Part shown: positions 11,634 to 61,780 of the stretch, one piece after another
How positions within the stretch are numbered: the first letter of the stretch is position 1
Layout of the letters: the number at the start of each line of letters is the position of its first letter
From: Desulfuromonadales bacterium
GTDB lineage: Bacteria > Desulfobacterota > Desulfuromonadia > Desulfuromonadales > JAHYIW01
DNA length: 64,000 nt
Assembly: GCA_029210745.1 (NCBI GenBank)
Contig: JARGFI010000005.1
Span: 1-64,000 of the forward strand
Reading direction: 5' to 3'
The notes under the pieces: model-generated
The model's input: only the letters and a program-made list of their open reading frames with translations
What the model was told of the DNA's origin: nothing
Database searches by the model: none
Program-made: the position numbers and the translations under genes

Positions 11634-13550
11634 GTGATACTCGACGGTAAATGTCCTACTGGGCCAATTGAAACTACCTGGGATCGTCATCGTTTCGAAT
11701 CGAAACTGGTGAATCCCTCGAACAAGCGTAAATTCAAGATTCTCTGCGTCGGTACCGGCCTCGCCGGTGGTGCTGCCGCTGCTTCGCTCGGCGAACTTGG
11801 CTACAACGTGCATGCGTTCTGTTATCAGGACAGTGCCCGCCGTGCTCATTCGATCGCCGCGCAGGGAGGTATCAACGCGGCCAAAAACTATCCAAATGAC
11901 GGTGACAGTATCTACCGCCTTTTTTACGACACGATCAAGGGGGGCGACTTTCGCGCCCGTGAGGCCGATGTCTGGCGTCTGGCGCAGGTCTCGAACAATA
12001 TTATCGATCAGTGCGTGGCGCAAGGTGTGCCGTTTGCGCGCGACTATGCCGGTTATCTTGACAACCGTTCTTTCGGCGGTGCGCAGGTGTCCCGGACTTT
12101 TTACGCTCGTGGCCAGACCGGTCAGCAGTTATTGCTCGGAGCGTACTCAGCGCTCTGTCGTCAGGTCAAAGCGAAGACCGTGACTTTGCATGAGCGGCGT
12201 GAAATGCTCGATCTGGTTGTGGTTGATGGCGTGGCGAAGGGGATTACCTGCCGCAATATGGTGACGGGAGAAATCGAGTCCCATTGGGGCGACGCGGTGA
12301 TTCTCGCAACGGGTGGTTATGTCAATGTCTTTTATCTTTCAACCAACGCCATGGGATGCAGCGTCACTGCTGCCTGGAAAGCTGCCCGTAAGGGTGCCTA
12401 TATGGCGAACCCGTGTTATACCCAGATTCATCCGACCTGTATCCCCCAATCGGGCGAGCATCAGTCAAAACTGACCTTGATGTCCGAGTCGCTGCGGAAT
12501 GACGGTCGTTGCTGGGTGCCGAAGAAGAAGGAAGATTGCGACAAGCCTGCCGGCAGTATCCCGGAGGAGGATCGCGATTATTATCTGGAGCGCAAGTATC
12601 CGTCTTTCGGCAATCTTGCTCCGCGGGATATTGCTTCCCGTGCGGCAAAAGAACAGTGCGATGACGAGCGTGGCGTCGGCCCCGGTAAACGTGGTGTGTA
12701 TCTGGACTATCAGTCCGCGATCGATCGTGTCGGCGAAGACACGATTCGTGAACGCTACGGCAACCTTTTCGAGATGTACGAAAAAATCACCGATGAGAAC
12801 GCCTACAAGCAGCCGATGCGTATTTACCCGGCTCCGCACTATGCCATGGGCGGTCTGTGGGTTGATTACAACTGCATGAGCAATGTTCCGGGCCTTTTCG
12901 TTCTTGGCGAAGCCAACTTTTCGGTTCACGGTGCCAACCGCCTCGGCGCTTCGGCGTTGATGCAAGGGCTGGCCGACGGTTACTTCGTTATTCCTTATAC
13001 CATTGCCGGTTATCTGGCAACGGTCAAGCCGGGCGAAATTACTGCCGAGCATCCCGAATTCAAGAAGTCTGCTGACGAGGTGAAGGGCACTATCGACAAG
13101 ATGTTGTCGATCAACGGTAAGAAAACGCCGGCGGAACTGCATCGTGAGCTGGGCAAGGTGATGTGGGAGAATGTCGGTATGGCGCGCAGTGATTCAAGTC
13201 TCAAGGCGGCGCTGAAAATGATTCCGGAAATTCGTGAAGAATTCTGGAACAATGTTAAAGTCACCGGAAAAAATGGTGAGTTCAACCAGCAACTGGAAAA
13301 TGCCGGTCGTTTGGCCGATTTCCTGGAATTTGCTGAAATCCTCACCAAGGACGCACTCAATCGCGAAGAGTCGTGTGGTGGTCACTTCCGGGTTGAGCAT
13401 CAGACAGACGACGGCGAGGCAATGCGTAACGATGAAGATTTCTGTTATGTAGCGGCTTGGGAATTCAAGGGTAACGGCGTAGAGCCTGAGATGCACAAAG
13501 AGCCCCTGAAGTTTGAGAATATTAAACTTGCCGTGAGGAGTTATAAATAA
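11634..13550 (+). CDS. sdhA: Succinate dehydrogenase/fumarate reductase flavoprotein subunit
   Basis: [56 protein letters not shown]. Confidence 0.95.
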
Positions 13551-14290
13551 TGAACCTGACACTGAATGTATGGCGTCAGAACGGCGCCGGGGATAAAGGA
13601 AGAATGGAGCAGTACCAGGCCAAGAATGTCAGCCCGGACTCTTCTTTTCTTGAGATGCTCGATGAAGTCAATGAAGAACTGATTCGTGAGGGGAAAGAGC
13701 CGATTGCCTTTGATCACGATTGTCGTGAAGGGATCTGCGGCATGTGTTCTCAGGTCATCAATGGCAAGCCTCACGGGGGCCAGGATCGTACGACCGTTTG
13801 TCAGCTGCATATGCGCTCATTTAAGGATGGAGATGCTATCTTCATCGAACCGTGGCGCGCCAAGGCGTTCCCGGTTCTGCGTGATCTTGCTGTTGACCGT
13901 AACGCACTCGACCGGATTATGGAAGCGGGTGGCTACACCTCCTGCCATACTGGTGGTGTTGCTGATGGCAACGCGCTGTTGATCGGCAAGCCGGAAGCTG
14001 ATTATGCGATGGATGCTGCCGAGTGTATCGGTTGTGGCGCGTGTGTGGCCGGTTGCCTGAACAGCTCAGCTATGCTGTTCACGTCAGCGAAGGTTGCCCA
14101 GCTGGCAACTTTACCGCAAGGCAAGGTTGAGGCTGCAAAACGTGTCAAGTCGATGACGGCTGAGCTCAAAGCGCAGGGCTTCGGTAATTGCACCAATCAC
14201 TATGAGTGTCAGGCCTCCTGCCCGAAAGGGATTGATGTCAAGTTTATCGCGACGCTCAATCGTGAGTATATCAAGGCGCTGGTCAAGTAA
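13550..14290 (+). CDS. sdhB: Succinate dehydrogenase/fumarate reductase iron-sulfur subunit
   Basis: [52 protein letters not shown] or ATG start at 13550. Confidence 0.95.
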
Positions 14291-14312: not shown

Positions 14313-14344
14313 AAAAGGGTGGCCCGTCCGGGCCACCCTTTTTG
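14313..14344 (+). terminator. Rho-independent terminator of sdh operon
   Basis: aaaagggtggcccgtccgggccaccctttttt. Confidence 0.9.
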
Positions 14345-14429
14345 CATTGATTTAAATGCTACAAAGACGTGACTTCCGAGCTTATCAAGAATCGCTTGTC
14401 ATCTCCGTTCAGATAAGTCAAAATCTCCT

Positions 14430-15359
14430 ATGCCCTTACAACTCCCTGATTACCTCAATTCCGTCGAATTCATGCGTCTGCGCATCACTCTTGAATTCGT
14501 GGAGGATATTGAGCTGCCCCTTGCTGCCCTGTTGACACTGCGCCGCGAACTTCTTGAGGCCGCGCGCTCCCTCGACAAGCAGTTTGGTGGTGACTTTACG
14601 CACCTGCTGACTCCCCACCTTGGAACCGACCCCGCAGTTATCAGGCGTTTTCAGAAACCATCCCCCCCGCTGGTCTTTGAAATTGATCCTGAGATGGTTG
14701 GAAGCTATGTTGCCGGTGATCAATTGCAGATTGGTGTTTTGTTATTGGGCAACGCGATAACTGAGGCGCAGTCGTTGTTGCGCATACTTGCGCGTCTCGG
14801 CGAGATTGGATTGCACAAAGGGGGAGGGCGCTATGAGCTGATCGCGATCGACTCATTGCGCCCTGACGGGACGACCTTACCGGTATGGGCTGAAGGTCAG
14901 CCGTGGAACACGCTGGAGTTTCTGGTTGACCCTTTCAGCTGGTGGTTTGAAGCGCAACGGTTAGACGCCGTCACGTTTGAATTTATCACCCCGGCACGTC
15001 TGGTTTCTGGAGGGAAACCACTTTTTTGTCCGACATTCAAAAACCTTTTCCCCTTTATCCTGCGCCGTGTTGGCAGTCAGTTGTCTGCTTACTGCTTTAT
15101 TGAAATAGATGACATGAATAGCCTTCTTGATGCTGCTGCGCAAGTGCAGGTTGAGGATAATCGTCTGCGCTGGAAAGACTGGAAATTATTTGCAGCACGC
15201 GAGAAAAACCGTGAACTCGGCGGGTTTATGGGCAGCTTGACGTGCAGTGGTTCTCCCTTGAATGATTTATTGTGGGTATTGCGCCTGGGGGAATTGTTTA
15301 ATGTTGGCAAGAATGCTGCCTGGGGGGCAGGGCGATTCAAACTTAATTTTTCAAGCTGA
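14430..15359 (+). CDS. Orphan Cas6-like RAMP protein (Cas6 C-terminal domain family)
   Basis: IRRFQKPSPPLVFEID...YVAGDQLQIGVLLLGNAI...LARLGEIGLHKGGGRYELIAI... and LGGFMGSLTCSGSPLNDLLWVLRLGELFNVGKNAAWGAGRFKL resemble the Cas6 C-terminal RAMP domain (PF10040-type); no cas1/2 or repeats nearby. Confidence 0.7.
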   Translation: MPLQLPDYLNSVEFMRLRITLEFVEDIELPLAALLTLRRELLEAARSLDKQFGGDFTHLLTPHLGTDPAVIRRFQKPSPPLVFEIDPEMVGSYVAGDQLQIGVLLLGNAITEAQSLLRILARLGEIGLHKGGGRYELIAIDSLRPDGTTLPVWAEGQPWNTLEFLVDPFSWWFEAQRLDAVTFEFITPARLVSGGKPLFCPTFKNLFPFILRRVGSQLSAYCFIEIDDMNSLLDAAAQVQVEDNRLRWKDWKLFAAREKNRELGGFMGSLTCSGSPLNDLLWVLRLGELFNVGKNAAWGAGRFKLNFSS

Positions 15360-15421
15360 CTTGTCAGTTGCGAAATTTTCGCTATAATCTACAAAATGCA
15401 ATGATTTAAGGAGGTTCCGTT

Positions 15422-15736
15422 ATGAATGATGCTTGGGATGAACGTAAAAAAGCTTTGGAAAACGAGTATTTTTACAAGCATGAAAAAGAACTTATTGAGC
15501 GCTTGCGCAATGAGAAACGTAATGAAGTGATTGTTGACTGTTGTAAAAACCGCTGTCCCAAGTGTGGTGACGTGATTGAAGCAATGACGTTTCGTGGTGT
15601 ACCGCTGGACAAATGTGTTTCTTGTGGTGGTGTGTGGCTTGGTCCGAAGGATTTTCAGATCCTGGCGTCAAAGGATCATCGTACCTGGTTCGATCTGTGG
15701 TTTAAAGCCGGTGACGAAAATCGCTCAGAAGATTAG
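15422..15736 (+). CDS. TFIIB-type zinc-ribbon protein
   Basis: CPKCGDVIEAMTFRGVPLDKCVSCGGVWLGPKDFQIL; AAGGAGG RBS. Confidence 0.8.
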   Translation: MNDAWDERKKALENEYFYKHEKELIERLRNEKRNEVIVDCCKNRCPKCGDVIEAMTFRGVPLDKCVSCGGVWLGPKDFQILASKDHRTWFDLWFKAGDENRSED

Positions 15737-15753: not shown

Positions 15754-16110
15754 ATGGGCTGGATACTCTTATTGTTAGTGGTTGCGGGGTGCTTTTGGTT
15801 GTATCGGGAATTACGCTGTCTCGAAGGGGAGATCTTGACTGAGATTGCACAAGACAAAGAGACGCGGCGCAGTGAAAATGCTGTTACTCCCTCTGTGCCA
15901 AGCCAGGACGTTGTGAATGACGAGGATTCGCAACAGAGACGTATTGTAGCTTTTGTGGCATCGCTGCCTGGTTGTGCGCAAAAAGAAGTTTACGCCCATT
16001 TTTCCGAGATTGATCGTGATAATTTGCAGAATTTATTGCGTGGTATGGCCAACGATGGACTGCTACGCCGCGAACGCGCCGGGAACAGCTATCGCCTTTA
16101 TCCGGTTTAA
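15754..16110 (+). CDS. Membrane-anchored protein with winged-helix-like C terminus
   Basis: N-terminal TM (GWILLLLVVAGCFWLYREL), C-terminal ...CAQKEVYAHFSEIDRDNLQNLLRGMANDGLLRRERAGNSYRLYPV. Confidence 0.6.
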   Translation: MGWILLLLVVAGCFWLYRELRCLEGEILTEIAQDKETRRSENAVTPSVPSQDVVNDEDSQQRRIVAFVASLPGCAQKEVYAHFSEIDRDNLQNLLRGMANDGLLRRERAGNSYRLYPV

Positions 16111-39476: not shown

Positions 39477-39735
39477 GGTTTGCCCAGCGGAGCTGGCAAA
39501 CCCGGCCCGTTGCAAGATACGGGCGTCACCCCGATCAGGGGGAAGACAATCCGAATCGCAAGGGCGTTGCTGGCAACGGCAGGGTCTGAAGGAAGCGATA
39601 GGAAGGCAGCGGCACATAGCGCAAGCGAACCTGCTTCGGCGCTACGGGTGGGTAAGCGTGCAAAATAGCGCAAAGCCCGGTAACTGATCAGACCCCAAGC
39701 GTGACGTCTGCAACGATTAAACGGGAGAAAATCTT
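39477..39735 (+). ncRNA. Candidate structured RNA, possibly a 5' (domain I) fragment of a group II intron
   Basis: ggtttgcc/ggcaaacc stem; gggtctgaaggaagcgatagg motif; long-range gggtctga (39582-39589)/tcagaccc (39688-39695) pairing; no domain V or reverse transcriptase. Confidence 0.4.
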
Positions 39736-39803
39736 GTCTTTTTCAGCCAATTATAGTATGTGAGATCGATGTAATTCATAGATATGGTTGAAAAGGGTCG
39801 GTG

Positions 39804-61700: not shown

Positions 61701-61780
61701 TAAGGATTAACTGAATCGCGAACCGTAGGGATAAAGTCTCCCCCCGCGGATCCGACACTTAACCGGTAAAGGAGTTATAC

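Follow-up and report, generated by a model that had tools for sequence, protein, structure and literature searches.

What does a Cas6-like protein do when its gene lies among housekeeping genes, with no CRISPR array beside it? Cas6 is the known maturase of CRISPR systems, and the question is raised by a locus in a 64,000-nucleotide stretch of DNA from a Desulfuromonadales bacterium (contig JARGFI010000005.1, positions 1 to 64,000, forward strand; hereafter the window). The original prediction had placed there an orphan Cas6-like gene, possibly repurposed to act on host RNA. We call this gene cas6L and its product Cas6L.

A member of the Cas6 superfamily

The gene is an ATG-started open reading frame with exactly the boundaries first proposed (Table 1). 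Its product matches the Pfam CRISPR_Cas6 profile (PF10040) with 49.5 bits (E=7e-13; curated cut-off 25) and the PADLOC Cas6 profile, which gives no cut-off, over its full length (residues 12-306; E=2e-52). Both profiles agree with the Cas6/RAMP signature previously read in the C-terminal half, the quoted motifs of which are present. The NCBIfam equivalog TIGR01877 (cas_cas6) does not match the window protein, and it scores 16.8-16.9 bits for two sister-order orthologues against a curated cut-off of 58.65; the CRISPR-linked Cas6 at locus L053 likewise has no match to it. Cas6L is encoded by a real gene and belongs to the Cas6 superfamily. The family itself is already known, and Pfam and PADLOC label such proteins Cas6.

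Table 1. Location of cas6L, its conserved elements and its neighbours in the window.
Feature	Position	Strand	Basis or remark
sdhB, upstream of cas6L (sdhCAB - cas6L) in many families of the class, an ancestral arrangement	13550..14290	+	gene order
Intrinsic-terminator-like hairpin between sdhB and cas6L	14318..14345	+	sequence and fold
cas6L, Cas6-fold protein, 309 aa, two RRM-like (RAMP) domains	14430..15359	+	Pfam/PADLOC profiles, predicted structure, motif counts
R38-R39, first long helix (LxLRR)	14541..14546	+	alignment
R212-R213, invariant Arg pair (PF.LRRV)	15063..15068	+	alignment
GKNAAWGAG glycine-rich loop, residues 293-301, C-terminal	15306..15332	+	alignment
ZnR, 104 aa zinc-ribbon protein (Zn_ribbon_TFIIB)	15422..15736	+	usually follows cas6L within the order
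TM helix + winged-helix protein, third cluster gene in many relatives	15754..16110	+	context only

Predicted structure and RNA-contact elements

The AlphaFold model of Cas6L, built from 48 orthologues, has a mean pLDDT of 92.7 and a pTM of 0.90. When it was compared with the PDB using Foldseek, the best 37 matches were all Cas6-type proteins, including Thermus and Sulfolobus Cas6, and the top match was the Cas6 domain of the Marinomonas Cas6-RT-Cas1 protein (E=3.5e-13). This comparison had been suggested at the outset, and because Cas6 folds were matched, the contrary outcome, namely the lack of any Cas6/RAMP fold, did not arise. As modelled, Cas6L has a tandem RRM fold with a C-terminal glycine-rich loop, as in the Cas6 superfamily.

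In known Cas6 proteins, RNA is contacted by the glycine-rich loop and the second RRM. Cas6L retains an invariant arginine pair, the GG-x2-G hairpin and a lysine-containing glycine-rich loop, GKNAAWGAG, the classic Cas6 RNA-contact loop. Four residues of this loop (G293, K294, G299 and G301) are invariant in alignment A2, and they remain so, together with R212 and R213, despite large divergence. No conserved histidine was found anywhere in the 60 aligned sequences, including in or near the first helix, where the catalytic histidine would be expected. Some active Cas6 proteins lack this residue, among them the Sulfolobus Cas6 (Sso1437 type; PDB 4ill, 3zfv), which cleaves RNA with lysine and arginine residues (PMC3652601). 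The predicted fold of Cas6L is that of the Sulfolobus protein, the known role of which is in CRISPR RNA processing, with active-site lysines.

The Cas6 domain of the Cas6-RT-Cas1 fusions (PDB 6dd5, 7kft) is the best structural match to Cas6L, and these two entries are also the only, weak, sequence matches of our class profile in the PDB. Unlike Cas6L, these proteins are fused to a reverse transcriptase and Cas1 and belong to type III systems, where they cut repeats via the active-site residue R37 (PMC8102632). As a lead, R38 of Cas6L might be the counterpart of R37, a correspondence that sequence alignment did not confirm.

Distribution, descent and selection

Searching with the window protein gave matches in 100 of the 118 genomes of the window's order. 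One of them (G047), with a weak match of CRISPR-linked type, was set aside, leaving 99 carriers. A profile search matched 227 of the 254 genomes of the class, a figure that includes a few CRISPR-linked hits. The description as an orphan was thus right as regards the position outside CRISPR loci, but Cas6L is no stray gene: it is near-universal, single-copy and syntenic, and was inherited vertically. The gene order tgt (opposite strand) - sdhC-A-B - cas6L recurs in the sister-order families and across many families belonging to the window's order, the remainder of which mostly shows tgt - cas6L - ZnR. Named sister-order members with Cas6L include Geobacter sp. AOG1, Geobacter argillaceus and Geomobilimonas luticola, and a search of named genomes with a Geobacter-like sub-alignment yielded seven named loci. 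In G. sulfurreducens, the orthologue might be GSU1179, a guess based on gene order; no papers on GSU1179 were found in the open literature. A tree of 70 proteins separates three sets by fully supported branches, each set lying wholly to one side: the proteins of the window's order, those of the sister-order families, and the CRISPR-linked ones, among which the canonical Cas6 proteins of same-order genomes are placed. Genuine CRISPR-linked Cas6 in the order is a branch separate from Cas6L.

The window protein and its same-genus orthologue show a dN/dS of 0.16, so Cas6L is under purifying selection in this genus. Identity within the order, outside the genus, is about 30-43%. Such fast divergence is not typical of a core enzyme of RNA processing, and a role related to conflict would be compatible with it. 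The systematic gap in the order is a single family (f3), which lacks both Cas6L and ZnR and keeps sdhB in most of its genomes. As this natural loss of cas6L occurred without loss of sdhB, the job of Cas6L is dispensable.

Independence from CRISPR-Cas systems

Our array script was run over 1.5 Mb in total (the window and all fetched loci) and detected no CRISPR array in the former or at any of the Cas6L loci, in agreement with the absence of repeats first reported for the window. Nor is there any cas gene beside Cas6L in any locus examined. The placement of the gene among housekeeping genes, outside a CRISPR locus, is borne out, and more strongly than first stated, as it is class-wide and vertically inherited. 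Among the 118 order genomes, 33 encode Cas1 and five encode type III RAMPs; 67 of the 99 Cas6L carriers have neither (counted from the order tables), and the presence of Cas6L is not associated with that of Cas1 (Fisher p=0.27). By contrast, many CRISPR-linked-type relatives adjoin cas10, csm3-5 or cas1 genes, and arrays were found by the same script at five CRISPR-linked-type loci (one of which, L099, lies outside the 13-row alignment described below). One genome (G050) carries both Cas6L and, elsewhere, a canonical Cas6 within a type III-A-like locus.

The host genome is not free of cas genes, as a 3.4 kb contig (C111) carries type I-C cas1, cas4 and a fragment of cas7. The Cas1 exceeds its curated cut-off, and the Cas7/Csd2 end is broken, with an in-frame stop. 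The cas4 gene (L032:986-2056, minus strand) is in frame with an upstream DUF559-like domain, to which it is joined by a PPFVKGG-type repeat element. This type I-C system may be decaying or rearranged. Neither Cas5 (PF09704) nor a second Cas6 was found in the host draft genome. A cognate array elsewhere had been named at the outset as the other contrary outcome; in the draft, one exact 13-base I-C repeat-end pattern, which arrays with other repeats would escape, gave no match. Because type I-C systems have no cas6 and process their RNA with Cas5 (PMC3652601), the host CRISPR system does not explain cas6L.

Cas6L might still be a housekeeping maturase that acts in trans on the repeats of any arrays present in the cell, be they type III or orphan. 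The retained fold and RNA-contact residues would fit such a role, and type III loci often borrow Cas6 in trans (PMC12669027). We nevertheless consider it decidedly unlikely, given the 67 carriers with neither Cas1 nor RAMPs, the Cas5-based nature of the host system (PMC3652601), the fact that at least one type III genome (G050) brings its own CRISPR-linked Cas6, and the loss of the two motifs KGSxxRG and RYSxRQ.

A remodelled N terminus and the loss of CRISPR-linked motifs

For comparison, we assembled a reference set (A3) of 13 CRISPR-linked-type relatives (PADLOC PDLC01477 type; e.g. L053, L088 and L097), two of them from same-order genomes and the others from further lineages of the phylum (Desulfobacterota-type genomes). 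They belong to the same profile family as Cas6L and resemble it in length, C-terminal RRM, GG-x2-G hairpin and glycine-rich loop. They differ from it in context, several adjoining cas10, csm or cas1 genes and some adjoining arrays, whereas Cas6L has no CRISPR context, and in three motifs that all of them share and all 66 order-level Cas6L entries lack: KGSxxRGxxG, the four-cysteine cluster C-x6-C-x2-C-x5-C-x-Y, and W-x-D-x2-RYSxRQ. KGSxxRG is present in 13/13 reference proteins, versus 0/66 order-level entries (a few of which are overlapping fetches of one genome) and 0/25 sister-order entries. The same counts hold for the C-terminal RYSxRQ, which the original prediction had not listed, while the four-cysteine cluster occurs in 13/13, 0/66 and 16/25 (sister-order families), respectively. 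The N-terminal half had correctly been described as seeming to lack an RGAFG-like loop and a cysteine cluster; YKGSxxRGxxG is the form that the former motif takes in the closest CRISPR-linked relatives, and it is gone from Cas6L.

At the position of the RGAFG loop, Cas6L now has a conserved LxLRR helix; the N terminus is thus remodelled rather than random. Within this helix, R38 is retained in 58 of the 60 rows of the order-level alignment (one row being canonical) and shares an alignment column with the arginine of the canonical KGSxxRG motif. As sister-order orthologues lack KGSxxRG and RYSxRQ, yet 16 of 25 still have the cysteine cluster, motif loss seems to have been stepwise.

The loss of signature motifs would also be expected of a decaying, functionless relic of a lost CRISPR system. 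This is scarcely credible, as reading frames are intact across the order and the class, the dN/dS value reported above indicates purifying selection, and key residues are invariant over large divergence.

Neighbouring genes

ZnR adjoins cas6L in most loci of the order, and the two largely co-occur: 89 order genomes have both, 10 Cas6L only, one ZnR only and 18 neither, the joint absence being mostly one event (family f3). Between the two genes (positions 15360-15421), a strong sigma70-like promoter, TTGTCA-N16-TATAAT, precedes ZnR; its position is conserved across the order, and promoter-like sequences were found before ZnR in 23 of 47 loci, versus 1.1 expected. ZnR was not seen near Cas6L in sister-order loci. 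In G080, a ZnR gene occurs alone (L128, G080:C53, about 2641-2928): the 6 kb stretch examined there contains no detectable Cas6L. An operon of Cas6L and ZnR is weakened as a candidate by this lone ZnR and by the conserved promoter of its own that ZnR possesses. ZnR is a neighbour of Cas6L and may be its partner.

The same associations bear on a possible role of Cas6L as a defence or anti-mobile-element factor in its own right, for instance as an RNA-binding sensor acting with its zinc-ribbon and TM-winged-helix neighbours. Such a role would agree with the fast divergence of Cas6L and with the co-occurrence and adjacency of ZnR. We regard it as unlikely, as defence genes are patchy whereas Cas6L is near-universal, single-copy and syntenic; moreover, ZnR is independent in promoter, in sister-order location and in G080, and the joint absence amounts mostly to a single event.

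Turning to the upstream side, the sdhB - cas6L adjacency, which the sister-order families have in common with many families from the window's order, could reflect a regulator dedicated to the mRNA of the adjacent succinate dehydrogenase/fumarate reductase. This is improbable: a terminator-like hairpin separates the two genes in the window, sdhB is distant from Cas6L in many genomes, genus g2 (G002, G022 and G034) retains Cas6L yet lacks any sdhB match, and most f3 genomes have sdhB and no Cas6L. A link of Cas6L to sdh function was rejected on this distribution. Since some carriers lack sdhB and most f3 genomes have it, sdh is a landmark of Cas6L rather than its target.

A proposed role in host RNA recognition

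The explanation that we favour, with a probability of about 0.6, is that Cas6L is an old, vertically inherited Cas6 which would have been exapted to bind, and perhaps to process, host RNA. Fixation of a chromosomal Cas6 derivative downstream of sdhCAB would predate the divergence of the orders in the class (the Geobacter/Desulfuromonas group), with vertical inheritance ever since; the protein would have kept the two-RRM fold and the RNA-contact elements while losing motifs that are invariant in CRISPR-linked relatives. Its most likely target would be a small structured element found in one host RNA or a few of them, to which Cas6L would either stay bound or which it would cut slowly and specifically, thereby acting in regulation or RNA maturation, with no involvement of CRISPR arrays. 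We favour such recognition, with cleavage either slow or lost, because the RNA-contact parts are invariant and the CRISPR-linked motifs are gone. The repurposing put forward in the original prediction is the best remaining explanation; RNA binding, the RNA target and any cleavage are what we infer. Chances are about even for a wider reading, in which a Cas6 endoribonuclease would have been domesticated throughout the class and would serve, independently of CRISPR, as a core chromosomal factor for recognising a motif in host RNA within a housekeeping RNA-processing or regulatory system.

A precedent for a Cas protein outside CRISPR-cas loci is solo-Cas4, commonly encoded there (PMC5704561), although Cas4 is an adaptation-module nuclease of unrelated fold. 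We found no published description of a class-wide, CRISPR-independent Cas6 in the open-licence literature, and the Cas6 passages of CRISPR reviews from 2022 and 2025 mention none. If the proposal is true, Cas6L, which most members of the class retain whether or not they have CRISPR, would clearly exemplify the recruitment of a CRISPR enzyme to ordinary cellular work, for which culturable Geobacter relatives are a ready test bed. The annotation of cas6L-type genes as 'Cas6' does not imply a CRISPR system.

RNA features of the window and related loci

No known RNA families and no conserved structured RNA were found beside cas6L, and a k-mer and hairpin search of upstream regions returned terminators and shared upstream motifs, with no candidate substrate. 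In tgt-type loci (e.g. L013, L017 and L020), a conserved TAACAGAA...GGCAAT motif lies upstream of cas6L and is probably the divergent tgt promoter read backwards. Elsewhere in the window, positions 39567-39740 (plus strand) match a group II intron domain (Rfam group-II-D1D4-3), and positions 61714-61774 correspond to an L20-Deltaproteobacteria ribosomal protein leader.
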